From Desulfuromonas sp. TF (GTDB taxonomy: Bacteria; Desulfobacterota; Desulfuromonadia; Desulfuromonadales; ATBO01), in assembly GCF_000472285.1 (NCBI RefSeq), contig NZ_KI421426.1, forward strand, positions 166,186 through 230,185: a stretch of DNA of 64,000 nucleotides. Direction: 5' to 3'. A program made the translations under genes and the position numbers. A model generated the notes under the pieces. It searched no databases. It saw only the letters and a list, made by a program, of their open reading frames with translations, and was not told where the DNA came from. Positions 47,764-63,822 of the stretch are shown here, piece by piece. The stretch's first letter is position 1; each line of letters opens with the position of its first letter.

Positions 47764-49200
47764 GTGAATCTTCCCGACCACAAGACCAAGATCGTCTGCA
47801 CCATCGGCCCGGCCTCCGAGTCCCGGGAGGTCATGGAGCGGATGCTGGAGGCGGGGATGAATGTCGCCCGCCTGAACTTTTCCCATGGCGACTTCGCCGC
47901 CCACAAGAAAGTCATCGACAACCTGCGTGCCGCATCAGCGGCAACGGGGCGCAGGATCGCCCTCATGGCCGACCTCTCCGGGCCGAAGATGCGCATCGGC
48001 AAGCTCAGGGAAGAGCCGGTCGAACTGAGCCCGGGCGATCCGCTCGTGCTGACGACCGAGGAGATCGACGGCGACCGGGGGAGGATGGCCGTTTCCTTCA
48101 AACGGCTGCCTCAGGCCGTCAAGCCCGGCGATGCGCTCTTTCTCAACGACGGCATCATCCAGATCGAGGTCGTCTCAGTCACCGGTAACGACGTCGCCTG
48201 CAGGGTGGTGGTCGGCGGCGAGCTGCGATCCCGCAAGGGACTCAACCTTCCCGGCATCGACCTCGGCCTCGGCGCCTTCACCGAGCGGGACCACGAGTGC
48301 CTCCGGTTCGCCGCGCGGGAGGGAATAGACGCCGTCAGTCAGTCCTTCGTCGAGACCGGCGACGACATCAGGGCGGTCCGCCGAGCGGCGGAGGCGCTGG
48401 ACTACCACCCCTTCATCATCGCCAAGATCGAGCGCTCCAATGCCCTCGAGCATATGGACGATATCCTCGATGCCTCCGACGGCATCATGATCGCCCGGGG
48501 GGACCTGGGGGTGGAGGTGCCGATCGAAAGGATCGCCGTCATCCAGAAGGACCTCATGCGCCAGGCCAATCGGCGCTCCAAGCCGGTCATCACGGCCACC
48601 CAGATGCTCGAGTCGATGACCGAGAGCCGCCGGCCGACCCGCGCCGAGGCCACCGACGTCGCCAACGCCATCCTCGACGGCACCGACTGCGTCATGCTCT
48701 CGGCCGAATCGGCGATGGGGAAATATCCCGTGGATGCCGTGGCGATGCTGTCCCGGATCGCCGCCGCCGTCGAACCCCGCAAGCAGCCGATCACGGTTGA
48801 GGGGCTGTTCGAGGGGGTGGATCTCAAGGGAAGGCTCAAGCCCGCTCACCTCATCGCCGTGGCGGTCGAGGCGAGCATCAAGTACGCCTCTCCCGCCGCC
48901 GTCTTCGTCCCCACCCACAGCGGCGCCACCGCCCGTAGCCTTTCCCTCTTCCGGCTGCCGGTCTGGGTCGCGGCGGTGAGCTCGTCCGAACGCACCTGCC
49001 AAGGTCTCGCTTTTTCCTACGGGGTGTATCCGGTGTACGAACCGTACCATCCGGAAGACTGGGATTCCTTCGTTCGGAGCTGGCTGGAGAGGCATCAGGT
49101 GGGGGGGGATATGGCCATCCTGACCGAAGGCCCCTCTAGAAAACACCCCGAGGGGCGCAACCGCATGGAAATCATGGATCTCAGGGGATCGAGATGCTGA
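47764..49200 (+). CDS. pyk: Pyruvate kinase
   Basis: 478 residues, the normal size. It makes pyruvate and ATP from phosphoenolpyruvate. KIVCTIGPASESREVMERML and MNVARLNFSHGDF start the barrel; LMADLSGPKMRIG, FIIAKIERSNALEHMDDIL (catalytic Lys region), GIMIARGDLGVEVP and ITATQMLESM are intact; the C-terminal domain has VFVPTHSGATARSLSLFR. It starts with GTG at 47764, with GAGGAGG six bases upstream. The stop overlaps the next open frame. An allosteric site cannot be judged. Confidence 0.96.
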   Translation: MNLPDHKTKIVCTIGPASESREVMERMLEAGMNVARLNFSHGDFAAHKKVIDNLRAASAATGRRIALMADLSGPKMRIGKLREEPVELSPGDPLVLTTEEIDGDRGRMAVSFKRLPQAVKPGDALFLNDGIIQIEVVSVTGNDVACRVVVGGELRSRKGLNLPGIDLGLGAFTERDHECLRFAAREGIDAVSQSFVETGDDIRAVRRAAEALDYHPFIIAKIERSNALEHMDDILDASDGIMIARGDLGVEVPIERIAVIQKDLMRQANRRSKPVITATQMLESMTESRRPTRAEATDVANAILDGTDCVMLSAESAMGKYPVDAVAMLSRIAAAVEPRKQPITVEGLFEGVDLKGRLKPAHLIAVAVEASIKYASPAAVFVPTHSGATARSLSLFRLPVWVAAVSSSERTCQGLAFSYGVYPVYEPYHPEDWDSFVRSWLERHQVGGDMAILTEGPSRKHPEGRNRMEIMDLRGSRC

Positions 49201-49238
49201 TTCTGGCCGGTGGCAAGAATGTGCCGCTGATGGAGTGC

Positions 49239-49736
49239 ATGAAATGGCCCTCCCATTTTCCCGCACGCAAGCCGCTGGGTATTCTTCTCGCCACGTTTTT
49301 CGGCCTCGCCGTGGCGGCTTGCGCCGCCATCTCCGGCCCGCCGCCCACGGGAGAGCTGCCGCTTCTCGATCTCTGGAGCGGCGACTTCCCCGTAAAAGAG
49401 CTCGCGCGTCTACCCGAGGGCCAGCAGCAGTCGCCGACAGGCTTCATATCGGACCCTGCAACCTTCGCCGCCGTGTGGCGGGCCTTCAAGCCGGACACAC
49501 CTTTGCCGGCCGTCGACTTCGACCGGAGCCTGGTGGTCTTCCACCGCAATACCACCTTCTACAACCACACTGACATCTTCAAGGTGGAGGCGGACCAGGG
49601 GGTGATCGATGTCCTCGCCATGGAAACCATGTCGGCCCTGCCCATCGAGGACCGGGTCGCTATGGCACTGGCGGTCATTCCCCGCCGGGGCGTGGTCGCC
49701 ATCAAGGCCGGCGACCGGCTCGTCCCTTTGCGTTAA
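49239..49736 (+). CDS. Putative lipoprotein of unknown function
   Basis: 165 residues. After basic residues (KWPSHFPARKPLG) comes a hydrophobic stretch ILLATFFGLAVAAC with a lipobox-like AVAAC, so a membrane lipoprotein is likely. The rest has beta-strand character (VDFDRSLVVFHRNTTFYNHT) with no recognised family. Start uncertain: ATGs at 49194, 49230 and 49239 are all possible; 49239 gives the cleanest signal peptide. It follows pyruvate kinase and precedes another lipoprotein gene. Confidence 0.65.
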   Translation: MKWPSHFPARKPLGILLATFFGLAVAACAAISGPPPTGELPLLDLWSGDFPVKELARLPEGQQQSPTGFISDPATFAAVWRAFKPDTPLPAVDFDRSLVVFHRNTTFYNHTDIFKVEADQGVIDVLAMETMSALPIEDRVAMALAVIPRRGVVAIKAGDRLVPLR

Positions 49737-49757
49737 AGCTTCGGTGGAGAACTGACG

Positions 49758-50921
49758 ATGCTTCACCTCAGGCTTTTATATCCTCTCACCCTGCTGATGG
49801 TCTGCGGGTGCGTCGGTCTGCCGCCAGAGCAGCCGAAAGCGGCTACAGTGGGCCAGGCCGCCGAAGCGGATTCTCCCGCCTCGGCCACCTATCGGATCGC
49901 GGGGCGCTTCGTCTCCCTGAGCGGAGGCCGCGCCGAGAATCAGGTCATCCCCGGGGCTGCCTCACGCACCGTGACGGAAATCTTCGGCGAACCGGTCGCC
50001 GGAGACCTCGATGGCGACGGCACCGCGGACGCGGCACTGCTGCTGGTGCAGCAGACCGGCGGAAGCGGCAGCTTTTTCCACCTCGCCGCGGCGCTGCAGA
50101 AGGACCGGAAGTGGCAAGGCAGCAACGCCGTTTTTCTAGGCGACCGCATCGCGCCGCAGGAGCTGTCTGTCCGCAATGGACTGATCATCATCCGCTATGC
50201 CGAGCACCGGCCGGGCGAACCCATGGCCGCCGCCCCCACCAGCGCGGTCGAGCGTTATTTCCTGGTCGAAAACGATCTCTTGTTAGAAAGGTTTTTAGAG
50301 GGGAAGGGAGCTGCGCCTCGCGAGGGATGGGTGACCATCGGCCACGAGGTGAGAGAAATCCTTCTCTGCGGCGAGGAACAGCCGCGTTGGCTGATGGGCG
50401 ATTCTCCGGCCTATGGGGACATCCGGGCTGCCCACCGCCAGGCGGCGGCAGACCTGCCTCCCTATGCTCCCGTCTTCATGATTCTCTCGGGAGAGGAGAC
50501 GCCGGCTCCCGGCGATGGTTTCGGGGCCGACTGCCCCGGCGGTTTTCGTGCCGCGCAGCTGCTGAAGGTAGCGTCCAGAGGCCACTGCAGAAGCGAATGG
50601 ATCCGGGTAGACGCACCGTCCCCCGGCACTTCCGTGGTCAAGGAGACGATCGAGATCAGCGGCCAGGCCCGGGGTCCATGGTTTTTCGAGGGGGATTTTC
50701 CGCTGCTGGTCATCGAGAGGATGGGAAGTGTCGTCGCCCGCCACTACGCCAGCGCCCAGGGTCCGTGGATGACCAGAGGCTGGGTTCCCTTCAGAAGTGT
50801 GGTCACCATTTCCCAACCCTACGAGCCGGGGTGGGGCTGGCTGGTATTGAAGAAGGACAACCCCACCGACCGGCGCGAACTCGATGACGAGGTGCGCATC
50901 CCTGTTTTCCTGCCGCCGTGA
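49758..50921 (+). CDS. Lipoprotein with C-terminal Gmad2 immunoglobulin-like domain
   Basis: 387 residues. Signal peptide with lipobox (LLMVCGC). Residues ~75-100 contain VAGDLDGDGTADAALLLVQQ, resembling an FG-GAP or EF-hand-like calcium motif. Residues ~290-385 match the Gmad2 domain: VVKETIEISGQARGPWFFEG, QGPWMTRGWVPF, and WLVLKKDNPTDR with RIPVFL at the end. Gmad2 is known from spore-germination-associated and other exported proteins; in Gram-negatives the role is unknown. GGTGGAG precedes ATG 49758. Confidence 0.8.
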   Translation: MLHLRLLYPLTLLMVCGCVGLPPEQPKAATVGQAAEADSPASATYRIAGRFVSLSGGRAENQVIPGAASRTVTEIFGEPVAGDLDGDGTADAALLLVQQTGGSGSFFHLAAALQKDRKWQGSNAVFLGDRIAPQELSVRNGLIIIRYAEHRPGEPMAAAPTSAVERYFLVENDLLLERFLEGKGAAPREGWVTIGHEVREILLCGEEQPRWLMGDSPAYGDIRAAHRQAAADLPPYAPVFMILSGEETPAPGDGFGADCPGGFRAAQLLKVASRGHCRSEWIRVDAPSPGTSVVKETIEISGQARGPWFFEGDFPLLVIERMGSVVARHYASAQGPWMTRGWVPFRSVVTISQPYEPGWGWLVLKKDNPTDRRELDDEVRIPVFLPP

Positions 50922-50937
50922 GTCTGACGGAGAGACA

Positions 50938-51115
50938 TCCTGCTGACCGTCTTCGGTCTGATGGAAGATGGAGTCAGCGCCCTTCTCGATTTCTCGGGCA
51001 CGCTTCGTAACGGAACTATCACCATCGAAGGCACCCTTTCCGCCTAGCGGTCCCTGCGCCTGGGGGACTTTCAGCCGCCAGGCCGGACCGGAAATATTCT
51101 GACCGGATTCCGCCG
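50938..51115 (+). pseudogene. Relic of the GrlR-like gene (3' half only)
   Basis: This stretch aligns with the 3' half of the intact gene at 53143-53496: CTCGATTTCTC, GAAGGCACCCTTTCCG and GCCAGGCCGGACCGGAAAT recur in the same order, with point changes and an in-frame TAG after CTTTCCGCC. There is no start codon or 5' half. Confidence 0.75.
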
Positions 51116-51395
51116 GAAAGCCCGCGTACCTGCTTCTGAAGGTCCAGGTCGCCAGGCAGAACAAAAGAAGGGGTACTTCCGCGATCGCTAAAACCGACGG
51201 TACGTAACTCCATGGCGTTCGTCGATTGCGGGGAAAGTACGCTTCCCGCTGCATATGCTTGAAAACGAACAAACCGGTTAGAAAAATGGAAGGTTTCGTT
51301 GTAAACTTCAACACTGAGCTTTGTGCTGCAGCTGAACACCCTGTCGATTCCGTCAACCTCCCCTTGCTGATTATGAGGAGACAAGGAAGCCAACC
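51116..51395. other. Intergenic region upstream of pgi
   Basis: Non-coding 280 bases after the GrlR-like relic. It becomes AT-richer toward 51290-51320 (GAAAACGAACAAACCGGTTAG), where a pgi promoter could lie; TGAGGAGACAAGG at the end is the pgi ribosome-binding site. No other structure is seen. Confidence 0.5.
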
Positions 51396-53045
51396 ATGAC
51401 AGAAGCCATCACCCCGCTGACCGCCCGCCCCGCCTGGAGGGCCCTCACCGAACACCACGCCGCCATCCGGGAGCGCCATCTCCGCGAACTCTTCGCCGAG
51501 GACCCCGGGCGGGGAGAGAGTCTGGCGGTCGAGGCCGTCGGCCTCTATCTGGACTACTCGAAAAACCGCATCACCGACGAGACTCTTCGGCTCCTCCTGC
51601 AGCTGGCCGAGGCATCCGGCCTGCGAGCGCGGATCGACGCCATGTTCCGGGGGGAGAAGATCAATATCACGGAGGGCCGGGGCGTCCTCCACGTGGCCCT
51701 GCGCGCCCCCCGGGGGGCGACGATCCTCGTCGACGGCGAGAACGTGGTCCCCGGGGTGCACGCCGTGCTCGACCGGATGAGCGCCTTCGTCAGCCGCGTC
51801 CGCAGCGGCGATTGGCGCGGCCATACCGGCAAGCGCATCCGCAACGTCGTCAACATCGGCATCGGCGGCTCCGACCTCGGGCCGGTGATGGCCTACGAGG
51901 CGCTCAGGCACTTCAGCGACCGCTCCATGACCTTCCGCTTCGTCTCCAATATTGACGGAACCGACTTCGCGGAGGCGGTCCTCGACCTCGACCCTGCGGA
52001 AACCCTCTTCATCGTCTCCTCCAAAACGTTCACGACGCTGGAGACGATGACCAACGCCCGGACGGCTCGGGAGTGGCTGCTCCGGGGGCTGAGAGGCGAC
52101 GAGAAGGCCGTGGCAAGGCACTTCGTCGCGGTTTCGACCAATGCCGAAAAGGTGGCCGAGTTCGGGATCGACACGGCCAACATGTTCGAATTCTGGGACT
52201 GGGTCGGCGGGCGCTACTCCATGGACTCGGCGATCGGCCTTTCGACGATGCTCGCAATAGGCCCGGACCATTTTCGCGCCCTCCTCGACGGCTTCCACCA
52301 GATGGACGAGCACTTCCGCACGGCCCCCTTCGAACGCAATCTGCCGGTGCTCATGGGACTCCTTTCCATCTGGTACGTCAACTTCTTCGACGCGCCGACC
52401 ATTGCGGTTCTGCCGTACGAGCAGTACCTGAAGCGCTTCCCGGCCTACCTGCAGCAGTTGACGATGGAGAGCAACGGCAAGCGTGTCACGCTCGACGGGG
52501 TCGAGGTCGACTACCAGACCAGCCCCATCTACTGGGGAGAACCGGGGACCAACGGACAGCACTCTTTCTACCAGCTGATTCATCAGGGAACCCGGCTCAT
52601 CCCCTGCGACTTCATCGCTTTCCACAAGTCGCTCAACCCCATGGGGCGGCATCACGACCTGCTCCTCGCCAACGTCTTCGCCCAATCCGAAGCCCTGGCC
52701 TTCGGCAGGACCCCAGAGGAAGTCAGGGCCGAGGGGACGCCGGACTGGCTCGTGCCCCACCGGGTTTTCACCGGAAACCGCCCCTCGAACACGATCCTCG
52801 CCGAGCAGCTCACCCCGGAAATCCTCGGCAAGCTCGTGGCGCTGTACGAACACTGCGTGTACACCCAGGGGGTGATCTGGAACATCAACCCCTTCGATCA
52901 GTGGGGGGTGGAGCTTGGGAAGGCGCTCGCCCAGCGCATCATCCCGGAACTCGAGAGCGAACAGGAGCCCGCGCTCGATCACGACGGCTCGACCAACGCC
53001 CTGATCCGCCGTCACCGGAAGATCGGGAAGAGGAGCAAAGGATGA
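51396..53045 (+). CDS. pgi: Glucose-6-phosphate isomerase
   Basis: 549 residues, the E. coli-like long form. It interconverts glucose-6-phosphate and fructose-6-phosphate. [50 protein letters not shown] (phosphate loop), [20 protein letters not shown] (signature), [29 protein letters not shown] (catalytic region) and [12 protein letters not shown] are all intact. GAGGAGACAAGG precedes ATG 51396. Its stop overlaps a 34-codon open frame that is a copy of the start of phosphoglucomutase. Confidence 0.97.
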
Positions 53046-53146
53046 AGTTGCATGAACTCGCCGGAAAGCAGGCCGCGGACTCGCCCCCTTTATCGTGCAA
53101 TCCGCCACCGTTGCCAGAAGCGGGAACCCCGGGAGGAAAGCCATGA
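53042..53146 (+). pseudogene. Duplicated 5' fragment of the phosphoglucomutase gene
   Basis: Begins [11 protein letters not shown], copying the phosphoglucomutase start [11 protein letters not shown]; the upstream GGAGCAAAGGATGA is also shared with 53738. After ~11 codons similarity is lost and the frame ends after 34 codons. Its ATG overlaps the pgi stop (ATGA) and its stop overlaps the GrlR-like ATG (ATGA), so it may still couple translation across the junction. Confidence 0.75.
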
Positions 53147-53496
53147 TCGAAGGTTTGTGGACGGCTCAGGTCAGATCGAATGTCAGCAACATCAGCCAGG
53201 GCTTCGGGGTGCTGATTTTGCGCGACGGCCGCATCTACGGCGGCAATTCCCTCTTTTACCATGTCGGCAGCTATACCTTGGACGGAGAGACCGTCAGAGG
53301 TGAAATCGTTATGAAGCATTATGGCGCCGATCCGCTGACGATCTTCGGACTGGTGGAAGAGGGAGCCAGCGCTCTCCTCGATTTCTCCGGCAGGATCGGT
53401 GACGGAACCATCACCCTTCAAGGCACCCTTTCCGGCCAGCCGTCCCTGCGTCTGGAAGGGACACTCACCCGCCAGGCCGGACCGGAAATTTTCTGA
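53143..53496 (+). CDS. GrlR-like small regulatory-domain protein
   Basis: 117 residues, a beta-barrel-like pattern: MIEGLWTAQVRSNVSNISQG, GGNSLFYHVGSYTLDGETVR and IGDGTITLQGTLSGQPSLRL fit the GrlR family (small lipocalin-like regulators named for the negative regulator of type III secretion in attaching/effacing E. coli). No type III secretion genes are present, so the role here is unknown. GGGAGGAAAG precedes ATG 53143. A truncated relic of the same gene lies at 50938. Confidence 0.75.
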   Translation: MIEGLWTAQVRSNVSNISQGFGVLILRDGRIYGGNSLFYHVGSYTLDGETVRGEIVMKHYGADPLTIFGLVEEGASALLDFSGRIGDGTITLQGTLSGQPSLRLEGTLTRQAGPEIF

Positions 53497-53539
53497 CGAA
53501 TGATTTAGGCATCGTCCCGGTCGAAGCATCAGTCACCAT

Positions 53540-53695
53540 TTCTCGATTTCGAAAGACGGCATATCATCCCGAGGACGATATATCGTCCTGACAGCCCTCC
53601 ACTGCCAACCCTCCATGCCTCTGCCCTTCTGATTTCCTCAATTTTATTCTTCACTTGAAAGCAAACCGCGGCGCCCCGAGATCTGGCATGGAAAT
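53540..53695 (+). promoter_or_regulatory. Duplicated promoter-like block (copy B) upstream of phosphoglucomutase
   Basis: AAAGACGGCATATCATCCCG with an adjacent inverse GGACGATATATCGTCC (53561-53590) and, about 112 bases after the first motif, CTGGCATGGAAATCGGAA. Same layout as copy A at 27432. TGGCATGGAAATCGG could be a degenerate sigma-54 promoter; the transcript would begin ~55 bases before pgm. Confidence 0.5.
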
Positions 53696-53747
53696 CGGAA
53701 GATCAAAAGTATGGGCGGGACAGAAGATTTGGCCTTAGGAGCAAAGG

Positions 53748-55406
53748 ATGACAATGCATGAACTCGCCGGAAAACCGGCGCCGCGATCGATACTGGCGAA
53801 CATCCCGCGACTGGTCTCGGCCTATTACACGCATGCGCCGGATGCCTCAGACCCGGAGCAGCGGGTCGCCTTCGGAACCTCGGGGCACCGGGGATCGTCG
53901 CTCCGGAAGAGTTTCAACGAGGCGCACATCCTCGCCATCAGCCAGGCCATCTGCGAGTACCGGAAGGCGCAGGGGATTGGCGGACCGCTCTTTCTCGGGA
54001 TGGATACCCATGCCCTTTCCGAACCGGCCCTGGCGAGCGCCATCGAGGTTTTTGCGGGGAACGGTCTCGACGTGTTCATCCAGGAAGGGCTGGGCTACAC
54101 GCCGACCCCGGTGATCTCCCATGCGATACTCGTCCACAACCGCGAGATTCGGGGAAGCCGCGGACTCGCCGACGGCGTGGTCGTCACCCCTTCCCACAAT
54201 CCACCCGAGGACGGAGGGTTCAAGTACAACCCGCCCCACGGCGGCCCGGCGGATACCGCAACGACCAAGGCCATCGAGGAGAGGGCCAACGAGCTGCTGG
54301 CCAGGGGTCTCGAGGGGGTCAGGAGGGTTCTCTTCGAAAGAGCCCTGAGGGCCGGCGGCATCCGCCGTCACGACTACGTGACGCCTTACGTCGACGCTCT
54401 CGGCAGCGTCGTCGACATGGAGAGCATTGCGGCGGCGGGCCTCAGGATCGGCATCGACCCGCTCGGCGGGGCGGCGGTCGCTTTCTGGCACCCGATCGCC
54501 GAGCGTTACGGCCTGCATCTGGAAGTCGTCAACGAGAATGTGGATCCCACGTTTTCCTTCATGACCCTGGACAGGGACGGGAAGATCAGGATGGACTGCT
54601 CTTCGCCCTTTGCCATGGAGAGCCTCATCCGGTTGAAGGACCGTTTCGACATCGCCTGCGGCAACGATACGGATGTCGACCGCCACGGCATCGTGACGAA
54701 GGGGGCGGGGCTCATGAACCCGAACCACTATCTCTCAACGGCCATCTGGTACCTCTTCCAGAACCGGGTCGGCTGGAGTCCGAACGCCGCCATCGGCAAG
54801 ACCCTGGTTTCGACGTCGATGATCGACAGGGTCGGCGCGGCGCTCGGCAGGAAGGTCTGCGAGGTGCCGGTCGGGTTCAAGTGGTTCGTCGACGGGCTCC
54901 TGGACGGATCTTTCGGCTTCGGCGGCGAGGAGAGCGCCGGCGCCTCGTTCCTCAGAAGGGACGGCGCGGTCTGGACGACCGACAAGGACGGCATCATCAT
55001 GAACCTGCTCGCCGGTGAGATGACCGCCCGAACGGGAAGGGATCCCGGCGAACTCTACCGGGAGATCGAAGGCCGGTTCGGAAGCCCTTCGTATGCGCGA
55101 ATCGACGCCCCCGCCACCCCGGAGCAGAAGGAGGTGCTGAAAAAACTTTCTCCGGACCTGGTCACGACGCGGGAACTGGCCGGTGAGCCGATCACGGCAA
55201 AACTGACCCGTGCGCCGGGGAACGGCGCCGACATCGGAGGTCTGAAGGTGATCACGCAGAACGGATGGTTCGCCGCCCGCCCTTCGGGGACGGAGGATAT
55301 CTACAAGATCTACGCGGAAAGCTTCCTGGGTGAAGAGCATCTGCTCAAGATTCAGGAAGAGGCCCAGGCCATCGTCAGCGCCGCGTTCGCCGCTGCGGGG
55401 TTCTGA
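53748..55406 (+). CDS. pgm: Phosphoglucomutase, alpha-D-glucose-phosphate-specific
   Basis: 552 residues, the E. coli Pgm length. It interconverts glucose-1- and glucose-6-phosphate. [20 protein letters not shown] is the substrate loop, [20 protein letters not shown] carries the phosphoserine, [13 protein letters not shown] is the metal loop and [20 protein letters not shown] the sugar-binding loop. The C-terminal phosphate-binding motif [17 protein letters not shown] is intact. AGGAGCAAAGG precedes ATG 53748; the same sequence occurs at the pgi/relic junction. It connects glycogen phosphorylase to glycolysis and closes the island. GC-rich hairpins without T-runs follow at 55407-55448. Confidence 0.97.
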
Positions 55407-58787: not shown

Positions 58788-58838
58788 GTGGCTTTACAGA
58801 GGATGGACGGGGAATGGGATAAATGCGGAAAACCGTAT

Positions 58839-58925
58839 CACGCGGATAACTTCGGATAAAAATCTGATTCAGGATCGAATCGCTTGATCCGCCATTATCC
58901 GAATTTATCAGATTTTATCCGCGTG
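58839..58925. repeat. R4 palindromic repeat between echC and echD
   Basis: CACGCGGATAA (58839) inversely matches TTATCCGCGTG (58915-58925). Between them TTCGGATAA / TTATCCGAA and AATCTGAT / ATCAGATT also pair, in altered order. AT-richer than its neighbours; no coding capacity. Confidence 0.7.
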
Positions 58926-59010
58926 CCATTGGTGTTGTGGTTCTTCTCTGTTTGGCACCCGCTAGTCACTTCAGATAACGTCGGTGCACAACAGAAACAA
59001 GGAATTGAGG

Positions 59011-59460
59011 ATGACTGAACTCCAGGAAATCATCCCGATAGACAAATCCGACCTCGTCGGTCTCGTGGCCGAGATGTTCGCCGAGGGGTATCGGCTGGTG
59101 CAGATCGGCTGCTCGACCTTGGCGGACGGCTACGAGCTCACCTGGTCCTTCGACCGGGACTATCGCTTCCGCAGCCTGCGGATCACCGCGGCGCCGGAGG
59201 AGGAGGTGCCGAGCATCAGCGTTATCTACCCGAATGCCTTCCTGTACGAAAACGAAATCCATGACCTGTTCGGCGTGGTCATCACCCACATCGCCGTCGA
59301 TTACCGGGGCTCCCTCTACCGGACGGCGATCGGCAAGCCCTTCAGTGTCGACAATGTCAAGCTGCCGGAGCCTCCGAAGCGGAAGGCTCCGGTATCCGGG
59401 GAAAAGCCGGAAACAGGATTGATTGGCGGTTCACACAAACAACAAGGAGAGAACGAATGA
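59011..59460 (+). CDS. echD: Ech-type hydrogenase subunit D (NuoC-like, 30-kDa family)
   Basis: 149 residues. The soluble NuoC-like subunit helps hold the small and large subunits. ELTWSFDRDYRFRSLRITAA, SISVIYPNAFLYENEIHDLF (family signature) and GSLYRTAIGKPFSVDNVKLP are visible. The C-terminal ~35 residues are non-conserved. AAGGAATTGAGG precedes ATG 59011. Its stop overlaps the first ompV-like gene. Fragments of this gene are duplicated at 60354 and 61255. Confidence 0.9.
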   Translation: MTELQEIIPIDKSDLVGLVAEMFAEGYRLVQIGCSTLADGYELTWSFDRDYRFRSLRITAAPEEEVPSISVIYPNAFLYENEIHDLFGVVITHIAVDYRGSLYRTAIGKPFSVDNVKLPEPPKRKAPVSGEKPETGLIGGSHKQQGENE

Positions 59461-60272
59461 AAAAGCAAATCCCGTATTCGTGCAAAGTCGCAGTCTTTTT
59501 CTCGGCACTGTTCCTGCTGGCCGGGGGGCCGGCGATGGCTCGTGACATTGATGTTACGGCGGCCGAAGGGGTCGGTCTGAAGCAAACCGTTCTTGGCCTG
59601 GGCGTGGCGGCTATCCCGGATTACGAAGGTTCCGACGAATATGAGGCTGCCCCTCTCCTCCAAGTCCGGTTCAACTGGACCAACAACATGTACTTCAGTC
59701 TTCTCGGCAATACCGCCAGGGCCAACCTGATCCCGAGCGACTCATGGCATTTCGGTCCTCTTCTGCGCTACCGGGCCGAGAGAGACGACGTCGAAAACGA
59801 TCGGGTGGACCGCTTGGAAGATGTCGACGCGGCCGTCGAAGCGGGGGCGTTCCTTTCCTACAACCTTCCGAACTGGGTTTTTTCGATTTCCGCCGCCCAG
59901 GACGTCGCCGACGCTCACGACGGCTATGTTGTCGATCTGGGAGCCGGATACCGCCACAAGCTTCAGGATCGGACCATGTTGACCCTTTTCGTCCAGACCA
60001 CCTACGCCAGTGAAGACTACATGGATACGTATTTTGGAATCGATACGGCTGATGCGGCCCGAAGCGGCCTCAATACCTTCGAGGCGGACTCGGAGTGGAA
60101 GGATGTCGGCGTGGGCGTCCTGGTGCAGCATAATTTTTCCCCCAACTGGGGTCTGCTGGGAGCGGCCAAGTACACCAAGCTCCTCGGCGATGCTTCAGAC
60201 AGCCCGATCGTCGATGAGGAGGGAGAAGAAAATCAGGGACTGATCGGCTTTATCCTGAATTACCGGTTCTGA
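59457..60272 (+). CDS. MipA/OmpV family outer-membrane protein, copy 1
   Basis: 271 residues. Signal peptide (FSALFLLAGGPAMA) then an outer-membrane barrel: GVAAIPDYEGSDEYEAAPLL is the MipA/OmpV signature, FGPLLRYRAERDDVENDRVD follows, and the chain ends LIGFILNYRF with terminal Phe. Family members act as scaffolds for murein enzymes or as porin-like proteins. An outer-membrane protein inside hydrogenase genes is unexpected. ATG 59457 overlaps the echD stop. AAGGAGAG precedes it. Confidence 0.85.
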   Translation: MKKQIPYSCKVAVFFSALFLLAGGPAMARDIDVTAAEGVGLKQTVLGLGVAAIPDYEGSDEYEAAPLLQVRFNWTNNMYFSLLGNTARANLIPSDSWHFGPLLRYRAERDDVENDRVDRLEDVDAAVEAGAFLSYNLPNWVFSISAAQDVADAHDGYVVDLGAGYRHKLQDRTMLTLFVQTTYASEDYMDTYFGIDTADAARSGLNTFEADSEWKDVGVGVLVQHNFSPNWGLLGAAKYTKLLGDASDSPIVDEEGEENQGLIGFILNYRF

Positions 60273-60353
60273 GCCGACTCCGCTCCGCCGGAGTCAGAGG
60301 AGTACACCGCAAGGGCGGGTGGCGGGAGACACAAATCCACTGAGGGATAGACC

Positions 60354-60437
60354 ATGACTGAACCCCAGGAAATCATTCCCATCGACAAATCCGACGGGAG
60401 AAAAGGCGGAAACCGCCCATCAGAAAGGAGAAGAGGC
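60354..60437 (+). pseudogene. Duplicated, internally deleted echD remnant
   Basis: Begins MTEPQEIIPIDKSDGRKGGN, copying echD MTELQEIIPIDKSDLVGL for 14 codons. The internal ~120 codons are missing; the next bases GGGAGAAAAGGCGGAAAC resemble the echD 3' part GGGGAAAAGCCGGAAAC. The frame runs in-phase into the second ompV-like gene. Confidence 0.75.
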
Positions 60438-61259
60438 ATGAAAAACAAAGGATTGCATTTCCACAAAGTTGTCGGGATTGCTTTCATTTCGGCCATGTTC
60501 CTGCTAGCCGCAGGACCGGCAATGGCTGGGGACATCGATGTAACGGCAGCGGAATCGATCAGTACCGAACAGACCGTCCTCGGTCTGGGCCTGGCTGTTG
60601 TCCCGGATTACGAGGGATCCGACGATTACACGGCGGCCCCTCTCCTCCAGGCACGCGTCAACTGGAGCAACAACATGTATTTCTCGCTTCTCGGCAATAC
60701 CGCGAGGTTCAACTTGATCCCGAGCCAATCCTGGACTTTCGGTCCCCTTCTGCGCTACCGCGCCGAGAGAGACGACGTCGAAAACGATCGCGTGGACCGC
60801 TTGGAAGATGTCGACGCGGCCGTCGAACTGGGTGCGTTCTTTTCTTACAACCTGCCGAGCTGGATCTTCACGATTACAGCCGCCCAGGATGTCGCCGACG
60901 CCCACGACGGTTATGTTGTCGACTTGGGGGCCGGATACCGCCTCCCCTTGCAGAAACAAACGATGCTGACCTTTTTTGCCCTGACAACTTACGCCAGCGA
61001 AGACTACATGGACACCTATTTTGGAGTCGATCCGGCCGATTCCGCACGCAGCGGCCTCAATACCTTCGATGCCGATTCGGAGTGGAAGGATGTCGGTGCA
61101 GGTATTCTGGTGAATCATCGCTTTAAATCCAACTGGGGCATGATAGGGGCGGTCAAATACACCAAGCTGCTCGGCGATGCCTCGGATAGCCCCATTGTCG
61201 ACGACGAAGGGGAAGATAACCAGTGGCTGTATGGCGTGATCGTGAACTACCGGTTCTAG
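60438..61259 (+). CDS. MipA/OmpV family outer-membrane protein, copy 2
   Basis: 273 residues, closely related to copy 1 (shared YRAERDDVENDRVDRLEDVD, AAQDVADAHDGYVVDLGAGY, YASEDYMDTYFG). Signal peptide FISAMFLLAAGPAMAG. It ends GVIVNYRF. AAAGGAGAAGAGG precedes ATG 60438, the likely true start, although the frame is open from the echD remnant at 60354. Created by tandem duplication of an echD-ompV unit. Confidence 0.85.
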   Translation: MKNKGLHFHKVVGIAFISAMFLLAAGPAMAGDIDVTAAESISTEQTVLGLGLAVVPDYEGSDDYTAAPLLQARVNWSNNMYFSLLGNTARFNLIPSQSWTFGPLLRYRAERDDVENDRVDRLEDVDAAVELGAFFSYNLPSWIFTITAAQDVADAHDGYVVDLGAGYRLPLQKQTMLTFFALTTYASEDYMDTYFGVDPADSARSGLNTFDADSEWKDVGAGILVNHRFKSNWGMIGAVKYTKLLGDASDSPIVDDEGEDNQWLYGVIVNYRF

Positions 61260-61360
61260 GGACCCTTTACCGGACAGCGATAGGCACGCCCTTCAGTATC
61301 GGCAATGTGAAGCTGCCGGCACTGCCGAAGCCGAAGGCGCCGGCAGCCGGGGACAGCCGG
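61250..61360 (+). pseudogene. Duplicated 3' fragment of echD
   Basis: After the ompV copy 2 stop, LYRTAIGTPFSIGNVKLPAL and PKPKAPAAGD are encoded, matching echD LYRTAIGKPFSVDNVKLPEP and PKRKAPVSGE. The junction lies at TACCGG, which is shared by the ompV end (AACTACCGGTTC) and echD (GATTACCGGGGC), consistent with microhomology-mediated joining. No start of its own. Confidence 0.75.
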
Positions 61361-61418: not shown

Positions 61419-62738
61419 ATGTCGCATAGGAGCATCATTCCGCCAGCAATCGATCGAGACCGCCTCGGGGCTGCCCTCGGAACGTCCGCTATCGCCTGCC
61501 TTTTCTTCCTGCTGTGGACGGCCAGCCTCCTCCCCGGCAGGGCCGCTGCCGCTGAATACGTCAGCACGCCGATGAGACTGCAGGCGAAGGACCTCCTCCC
61601 ACCCCCCGTACTCCAGGGGGAGAGCTACCGCATCGACGACAGCGTCTACAACGACGGGATGTTCAACCTGTTCAGCCTTACCACCGACTACGGCCCGATG
61701 AATGCCGAGAGTGAAACGCTGCTGAACATCCTCCTGGCCGAGTTGACCGCCCTGAATGCGATGCAGCAGATGGAACGGAAGAAGGTCTTCGGAGAGGCCT
61801 TGGTCGAAGGAGTCAAGGCGCCCTTCAAGGGGGCGGCGGCGCTGGTCACCTCGCCAGTCGAGACCAGCAAGAAGATCGCCAAGGGGACCGGACAGTTCTT
61901 CAGCAACATGGGGCGGGCGATGTTCGATGACGATCCCGACCAGGACAACGCCCTCAAGGTCGCGGTCGGCTACGACGTGGCCAAGCGCAAGTTCGCCTAC
62001 GAGTTCGACATCAACCCCTACACCACCAACGAGGTGGTGGCTGAACGCCTCGGCGCGATCGCCCGGGCGGCGGTGGCCGGCGGGGTGACCACGAAGGTTG
62101 CGATGGCCGCCGTCGACAGCGATGTGGTCACGGCCATGCGCGTCAGCGGCGCGGCGCAGGGGATGAAACAACTGGTTCGGGACAACCCGCCGGGGAAACT
62201 CGCGGAAATCAACGGTGAGAAGTTGGCGAAGATTGGCGTTGCCGCCCCCATGGCTACGGCTTTCCTCGACAACTACAACTTCGATCCCTATGAAGAGACC
62301 TTGCTGGTCGGAGAACTGGATGCCATGCAGGGGGTCAGGGGACGCGAGGCCCTCATCGCCCGGGCCGGCCAGGTCACCTCCCGCCGGGAAGCGGTCCTGC
62401 TCCGGCATCTGGCCCAGATGATGGGCGGCTACCACGCCAACGTCGCCCCGGTTGCCGCCATGGCGAACCTCGGCGGCATCCTCACCTTGCAGAAAACGGA
62501 CGGGGGGCTGGCCATCGTCTTTCCGGCCGACCTGGTCTTCTGGACGCCGGCCCTGGAGGCGAAGATCGCCTCCTTCGAAAAGGAGGCGGGCGCGGGAGCC
62601 GCGCCGGAACTGCTCGTTTCCGGGCGCCTGGACGCTTCGGCGCGCGAGCGGCTGGCCGCCAAGGGGTGGAAGATCACCGAGAACGCCAACCCGGTCCTGT
62701 TCAAGGAGCCGCAGTCGGCCGCAAAAAAAGAGGGATAA
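61419..62738 (+). CDS. Exported protein of unknown function within the hydrogenase cluster
   Basis: 439 residues. Signal peptide (IACLFFLLWTASLLPGRAAAAE). The mature part is largely helical: SETLLNILLAELTALNAMQQ, an amphipathic segment (KAPFKGAAALVTSPVETSKK), Ala-rich helices (residues ~205-270) and a C-terminal alpha/beta region ending in a Lys-rich tail. I recognise no family. It is placed between the ompV duplicates and echE, with four bases to echE, so it is probably co-transcribed with the hydrogenase. Periplasmic or outer-membrane-associated by signal peptide. Confidence 0.75.
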   Translation: MSHRSIIPPAIDRDRLGAALGTSAIACLFFLLWTASLLPGRAAAAEYVSTPMRLQAKDLLPPPVLQGESYRIDDSVYNDGMFNLFSLTTDYGPMNAESETLLNILLAELTALNAMQQMERKKVFGEALVEGVKAPFKGAAALVTSPVETSKKIAKGTGQFFSNMGRAMFDDDPDQDNALKVAVGYDVAKRKFAYEFDINPYTTNEVVAERLGAIARAAVAGGVTTKVAMAAVDSDVVTAMRVSGAAQGMKQLVRDNPPGKLAEINGEKLAKIGVAAPMATAFLDNYNFDPYEETLLVGELDAMQGVRGREALIARAGQVTSRREAVLLRHLAQMMGGYHANVAPVAAMANLGGILTLQKTDGGLAIVFPADLVFWTPALEAKIASFEKEAGAGAAPELLVSGRLDASARERLAAKGWKITENANPVLFKEPQSAAKKEG

Positions 62739-62742
62739 CAGC

Positions 62743-63822
62743 ATGGCCCGCAAAATCCTCATCCCCTTCGGACCGCAGCATCCGGTTCTCCCCGAGCCGA
62801 TTCACTTCGACCTGGTGACGGAGGACGAGAAGGTCATCGACGCCGTCCCCTCGATCAGCTACGTCCACCGAGGGCTGGAGCGGCTGATCGAGCATCGCGA
62901 TTTCATCGACTTCGCGCATGTGGCCGACCGGATCTGCGGCCTGTGCAGCTTCATGCACTCCCTGGGGTACTGCCAGGCCGTGGAGGAGATCATGGGAGTC
63001 GAGGTGCCGGAGCGCGCCCTCTACCTGCGCTCCGTCTGGGCGGAGCTGTCCCGGATCCACAGCCATGTCTTCTGGCTGGGGGTCGCCGCCGACGCCTTCG
63101 GCTTCGAGAGCCTGTTCATGCAGGCGCTGAGGTTGAGGGAGCCGGTGCTCAACATCTTCGAAGAGACCACGGGGGCCAGGGTCATCCTGGGGGTGTGCAA
63201 GGTGGGCGGCGTGCGCCGGGACATCGACGCCGCCAACCTGAAAGGAATCGTCGGCCGGCTGGCCTCCCTGAAGAAGGACCTGGAAGAACTCAGCCGCGTC
63301 TTCATCGACGACTACTCCGTGCGGCACAGGTTGTCGGGGGTCGGCGTCATTTCCCGGGAAGACGCCTACGTGCTCGGCTGCGTCGGGCCCATGGCCCGGG
63401 CGAGCGGCCTGGCCATGGATATGCGGGCCATCGGCTATGCGGCGTACAAATATCTGGAGATGGAACCGGTGGTGGAATCCGCCGGGGACTGTTATGCCCG
63501 GTGCCTGGTGCGTATCCGCGAAATTTTCCAATCGATCGACCTGATCCGGCAGGGGGCGGAAAAAATCCCCGAAGGGCCCATCGAGGTCAAGGTGACGGGG
63601 GCTCCGGACGGTGAATACTACTCCCGGGTCGAGCAGCCCCGGGGGGAGGTGATCCACTACGTCAAGGGAAACGGCTCCAGGATGCTCCAGCGGTTCCGGG
63701 TGCGCGTCCCCACCTTCAGCAACATTCCGGCGATGATCAAGGTGCTGAAGGGCTCGGAGGTCGCCGACGTGCCGAACATCATCTTGACCCTGGACCCATG
63801 CATCAGCTGCACAGAACGATGA
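62743..63822 (+). CDS. echE: Ech-type [NiFe]-hydrogenase large subunit E (NuoD-like)
   Basis: 359 residues. It carries the NiFe active site. Both ligand motifs are present: RICGLC (Cys65, Cys68) and DPCISCTER (Cys353, Cys356). It is therefore a catalytic hydrogenase subunit, not a complex I NuoD. PFGPQHPVLPEPIHFDL and YVHRGLERLIEHRDF are typical. The protein ends exactly at CTER, because the TGA stop comes from the start of R1 copy 5; many relatives continue past this motif. AGAGGGATAACAGC precedes ATG 62743. Maturation by C-terminal cleavage would not be possible or needed in this form. Confidence 0.94.
   Translation: MARKILIPFGPQHPVLPEPIHFDLVTEDEKVIDAVPSISYVHRGLERLIEHRDFIDFAHVADRICGLCSFMHSLGYCQAVEEIMGVEVPERALYLRSVWAELSRIHSHVFWLGVAADAFGFESLFMQALRLREPVLNIFEETTGARVILGVCKVGGVRRDIDAANLKGIVGRLASLKKDLEELSRVFIDDYSVRHRLSGVGVISREDAYVLGCVGPMARASGLAMDMRAIGYAAYKYLEMEPVVESAGDCYARCLVRIREIFQSIDLIRQGAEKIPEGPIEVKVTGAPDGEYYSRVEQPRGEVIHYVKGNGSRMLQRFRVRVPTFSNIPAMIKVLKGSEVADVPNIILTLDPCISCTER

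Follow-up and report, generated by a model that had tools for sequence, protein, structure and literature searches.

Tandem duplication of an echD-ompV unit inside the Ech hydrogenase operon of Desulfuromonas sp. TF

Tandem gene amplification followed by the loss of bystander copies gives histories of the amplification-divergence type. The locus described here resembles these histories in that its repeated unit includes a neighbouring gene and the genes of that unit have met unequal fates, and differs from them in nothing but its unusual place. It lies in a 64,000-nucleotide stretch of the Desulfuromonas sp. TF genome (the window, meaning the whole stretch that was analysed), inside a hydrogenase cluster as the original prediction had stated: the subunit genes echA to echF were found in order, identifying an Ech hydrogenase operon whose echF crosses the window end (L151). 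The nearest ech clusters are those of two Geobacteraceae MAGs (L037 and L038), Syntrophus PtaB.Bin001 (L039) and Nitrospiraceae UBA9159 (L040), which have the same gene order, echA-B-C-D-E-F, and whose subunits are 67-90% identical at the protein level. Unlike these operons, the Desulfuromonas operon has 3.3 kb of additional sequence (envelope genes and echD remnants) separating echD from echE, and a dispersed repeat separating echC from echD, two genes that adjoin without a spacer in L037.

The inserted ompV genes belong to the MipA/OmpV family (PF06629), which includes the polymyxin-binding MipA of Pseudomonas aeruginosa (PMC10936184). Their products resemble the family in a full-length match, a signal-peptide-like start and a C-terminal aromatic residue, whereas their arrangement as a tandem pair within a hydrogenase operon, with no adjoining mipB partner, sets them apart. 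In relatives, homologues of OmpV and of a further inserted gene, gene X, often adjoin Pqi/Let/MCE lipid-transport operons (PMC5561183, PMC10897342), but here neither ompV nor gene X adjoins such genes.

Direct repeats between echD and echE

The features of the region are as follows (window coordinates).

58828..58929, no strand: palindromic dispersed repeat in the 223-nt echC-echD spacer; inverted repeat with about 18 matches in its own genome (E<1e-3, 72-96% alike)
59011..59460, + strand: echD copy 1 (echD1), intact, 149 aa, NuoC-like 30 kDa subunit (Pfam PF00329, Complex1_30kDa, E 2e-7)
59457..60272, + strand: ompV1, MipA/OmpV-family outer-membrane protein, 271 aa (PF06629, E 2e-54)
60343..60395, + strand: 5′ remnant of echD copy 2, ribosome-binding region plus codons 1-14, ATG at 60354 (85% to 59000-59052, E 7e-12)
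60354..61259, + strand: 301-codon open frame (list of open reading frames) in which the ATG of the echD stub is fused in frame to ompV2; the upstream ATG is a candidate start
60397..60413, + strand: putative end of echD copy 2 (3′ tail), which an internal deletion of ~345 nt would have joined to the 5′ remnant (15/17 nt to 59398-59414)
60438..61259, + strand: ompV2, MipA/OmpV family, 273 aa when read from its own ATG, which is preceded by a good ribosome-binding site (77% amino acid identity to ompV1)
61259..61360, + strand: 3′ remnant of echD (copy 3), from codon 100, in codon register (83% over 99 nt to 59312-59410, E 3e-23)
61419..62738, + strand: gene X, 439 aa, hydrophobic N-terminal segment (no match in Pfam, NCBIfam or among solved structures in the PDB)
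62743..63822, + strand: echE, where the native ech genes resume, 4 nt past the gene X stop (PF00346 and PF00374; 87% to L037/L038)

Self-comparison of 58.9-62.76 kb by BLAST returned three collinear direct repeats arranged head-to-tail, and no other direct match. These comprise the echD 5′ end (59000-59052 versus 60343-60395, 53 nt, 84.9%, E 7e-12), ompV1 and ompV2 (59502-60270 versus 60489-61257, 770 nt, 80.5%, E 0) and the echD 3′ end (59312-59410 versus 61263-61360, 99 nt, 82.8%, E 3e-23). The order on the plus strand is echD1, ompV1, echD 5′ stub, ompV2, echD 3′ stub, so that the predicted order and coordinates of the block and the nucleotide-level relatedness of both fragments to echD1 were borne out; of the "progressive decay" attributed to the block, the order stands, and "progressive" describes that order and nothing further. 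The arrangement is far beyond chance, and head-to-tail copies that are alike along the unit at the nucleotide level constitute a tandem segmental duplication. Repeat homology begins 11 nt before the echD ATG, and the duplicated unit therefore includes the echD ribosome-binding site. The exact edges of the unit cannot be placed because the flanks of the two units are dissimilar, both 3′ of ompV1 and ompV2 (P 0.82) and 5′ of echD1 and echD copy 2 (P 0.64). All genes of the block are co-oriented and are separated by overlaps or short spacers, with no match to a plus-strand terminator or sigma-70-like promoter within the block and no RNA family in it.

As predicted, two outer-membrane genes remain co-oriented with the enzyme gene; ompV1 begins with a 4-nt overlap (ATGA) of the echD stop. 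Both proteins are full-length MipA/OmpV members (PF06629 scores of 185.6 and 183.7 bits, against a curated cut-off of 24.2), and membership of this family would place them in the outer membrane as beta-barrels. Comparison of ompV1 with ompV2 gave a dN of 0.15 and a dS of 0.73 (interval 0.56-0.99), a dN/dS of ~0.2; both genes are under purifying selection and hence maintained, while echD has been kept once. The dS value also indicates that the duplication is old. Over their initial 15 codons, the two genes share only ~49% identity. Gene conversion over the nearly identical codons 103-130 was considered and rejected, as the synonymous codons gave no significant signal, neither for the run (P 0.33) nor for the segment (P 0.07).

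The 3′ stub starts at echD codon 100 with GGG-ACC-CTT-TAC-CGG (GTLYR, the form found in relatives) and overlaps the ompV2 stop codon by a single base. The sequence at this junction reads AACTACCGGTTCTAG on the ompV2 side and GGACCCTTTACCGG on the echD side. The original prediction placed a TACCGG microhomology here. TACCGG does occur at 61248, in the end of ompV (NYRF), and at 61268, in echD, but the two copies flank the breakpoint at ~61259 rather than span it, and in 18% of random pairs of 30-nt stretches drawn from the window a 6-mer is shared by chance; the microhomology was rejected on these grounds. A crossover at TACCGG would, moreover, have cost ompV its last codon and stop. An ATCCG-type microhomology at the deletion in echD copy 2 was also dropped, as the present-day letters fit it inexactly. 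That copy had been described as internally deleted; its 5′ start is present at 85% identity, whereas the putative tail at 60397-60413 is suggestive only, its 15/17-nt match to echD1 having a shuffle P of ~0.006.

Ech operons of relatives and the origin of the inserted genes

EchD was used to scan the contigs of GTDB genomes, which identified 57 other ech loci. In all 57, echE directly follows echD (at most ~260 nt from match to match) and neither an ompV nor a gene X homologue is present, which points to echC-echD-echE as the ancestral order; such a comparison with relatives had been proposed. Within this sample the block occurs in the present genome only, the sole representative of its family, and no intermediate state of the block was seen in any genome examined. 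A separate EchD search of 57 genomes of the same order gave weak matches in only two, both in other hydrogenase-like clusters, so the ech cluster is sporadic in the order.

Gene X, which the original prediction left unmentioned along with the absence of the block from the other ech loci, is a second kind of intruder beside the ompV genes. It sits between the 3′ stub (echD copy 3) and echE, and is therefore attributed to the same intrusion as the ompV block. The sample of the phylum contains gene X homologues in 25 further genomes. Those of G036 and G024 are imperfect: in G036 (C3:11707-12920) the homologue is split into two frames at ~codon 272, by frameshift or decay, and in G024 only the C-terminal part was found.

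The closest OmpV homologues of these two same-order genomes follow pqiA-pqiA-pqiB-pqiC-like genes, and their gene X pieces lie at most ~5 kb from an MCE operon; in G301 the OmpV homologue follows ABC-MlaD-pqiC-like genes. The closest gene X homologues (G139, G406 and G389) adjoin pqiA-pqiA and a LetB-like gene with seven MCE domains. OmpV and gene X families occur together in 7 of 395 genomes, against ~1.4 expected if they were independent and kinship is ignored. The present genome has five single MCE-domain matches, and PqiA was not found in it. The block thus looks like a set of envelope-maintenance genes now resident in an ech operon, and the 439-aa family gains its first genomic context, linked in relatives to MCE lipid transport.

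History of the block

The echD fragments had been ascribed to duplication in this lineage, and this was upheld. Over 129 alignable nt the stubs differ from echD1 by 15.5% and from L037/L038 by 23-28%, and stubs and echD1 group together before the nearest relatives with 88% bootstrap support (129 nt). The two OmpV proteins, the only close MipA homologues found in this genome, share 77% identity with each other and at most 47% with any homologue in the 395 genomes of the phylum. This sister grouping, together with the closeness of the OmpV pair, favours duplication within the lineage. A second echD-ompV unit imported by recombination from a related organism already carrying echD-ompV, its divergence having arisen outside this genome, would explain the large divergence (the ompV dS) and the ancestral residues that the stubs keep and echD1 has lost. 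EchD1, which is 77% identical to the EchD of a Geobacteraceae MAG, lacks residues common to the stubs and its nearest relatives (P4 and T101 in 4/4, T109 in 3/4), and echD1 is thus not simply the unchanged parent. Such an import is nevertheless improbable, as none of the 57 other ech loci carries ompV and the echD copies form a group that excludes the nearest relatives. Evolution of the stubs as coding sequence before truncation was also considered and set aside as weak, since echD1's own constrained branch contributes to the synonymous excess (P 0.017). An assembly or binning artefact, to which the 17 contigs and 2.2% estimated contamination of the genome might point, is very hard to credit: the copies differ by 15-20%, the genes have open frames on which selection acts, and the block (225-229 kb on the 249-kb contig C15) lies ~20 kb from the nearest contig end.

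In the preferred history, in which we have moderate confidence, the ech operon captured envelope genes, which were amplified along with echD before deletions removed the superfluous echD. Starting from the usual echCDE order, the operon would have gained the envelope genes (ompV/MipA and gene X) between echD and echE, after which the segment from the echD ribosome-binding region through ompV would have been duplicated in tandem, probably by unequal exchange. Selection would have kept both ompV copies and only one echD, and deletions removing the redundant echD copies would have left the 5′ stub, now an in-frame leader of ompV2, and the 3′ stub before gene X. On this reading the block would probably be co-expressed with ech.

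How many rounds this took is less firm. The 5′ stub (codons 1-14) and the 3′ stub (codons 100 onward) do not overlap and could therefore be the two ends of one second echD. On such an account only two echD copies ever existed, the second having had its codons 15-99 replaced by ompV2; it requires one echD copy fewer, and the stubs flank ompV2 exactly. We regard it as rather unlikely, because no evident mechanism puts an ompV copy inside echD and because the 17-nt echD-tail match upstream of ompV2, the sole sign of a third echD copy, is expected under three copies only. Three copies are accordingly favoured over two, though not strongly, the match sitting where it would be expected, directly before ompV2. 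Of the "repeated unequal recombination" originally proposed, the duplication within the lineage stands, whereas "repeated" was not established, given non-overlapping stubs and this match alone.

If the capture-and-amplification history is correct, the locus would be a clear case of an operon that takes in unrelated genes and amplifies them, with a contrast inside one unit between ompV, kept twice, and echD, kept once. No new mechanism is revealed; the place of this scar is unusual, the evolutionary process that left it ordinary. A functional extension, namely that OmpV1, OmpV2 and X might be expressed with Ech, tying outer-envelope upkeep to hydrogen/ferredoxin metabolism, and that the echD stub might be a translated OmpV2 leader, is a distinctly speculative one.

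Genes flanking the ech cluster

Just past the window end (L151:2626-5823, contig C15), echF is separated from an aldehyde:ferredoxin oxidoreductase-like gene by genes for a GH63/MGH1-like glycosidase and a SWEET-like sugar transporter, a further intrusion in the ech cluster; in L037 and L038 the aldehyde:ferredoxin oxidoreductase-like gene closely follows echF. An initial reading of the glycosidase and transporter genes (909 aa and 154 aa) as MCE/BOF envelope genes, of the kind that neighbour gene X in relatives, was wrong. Before echA, at 49194-55406, lie genes for a Gmad2-domain protein, phosphoglucose isomerase and phosphoglucomutase. In L038, echA closely follows a homologue of the gene at 47764-49200, which suggests that sugar genes entered on the echA side here too.
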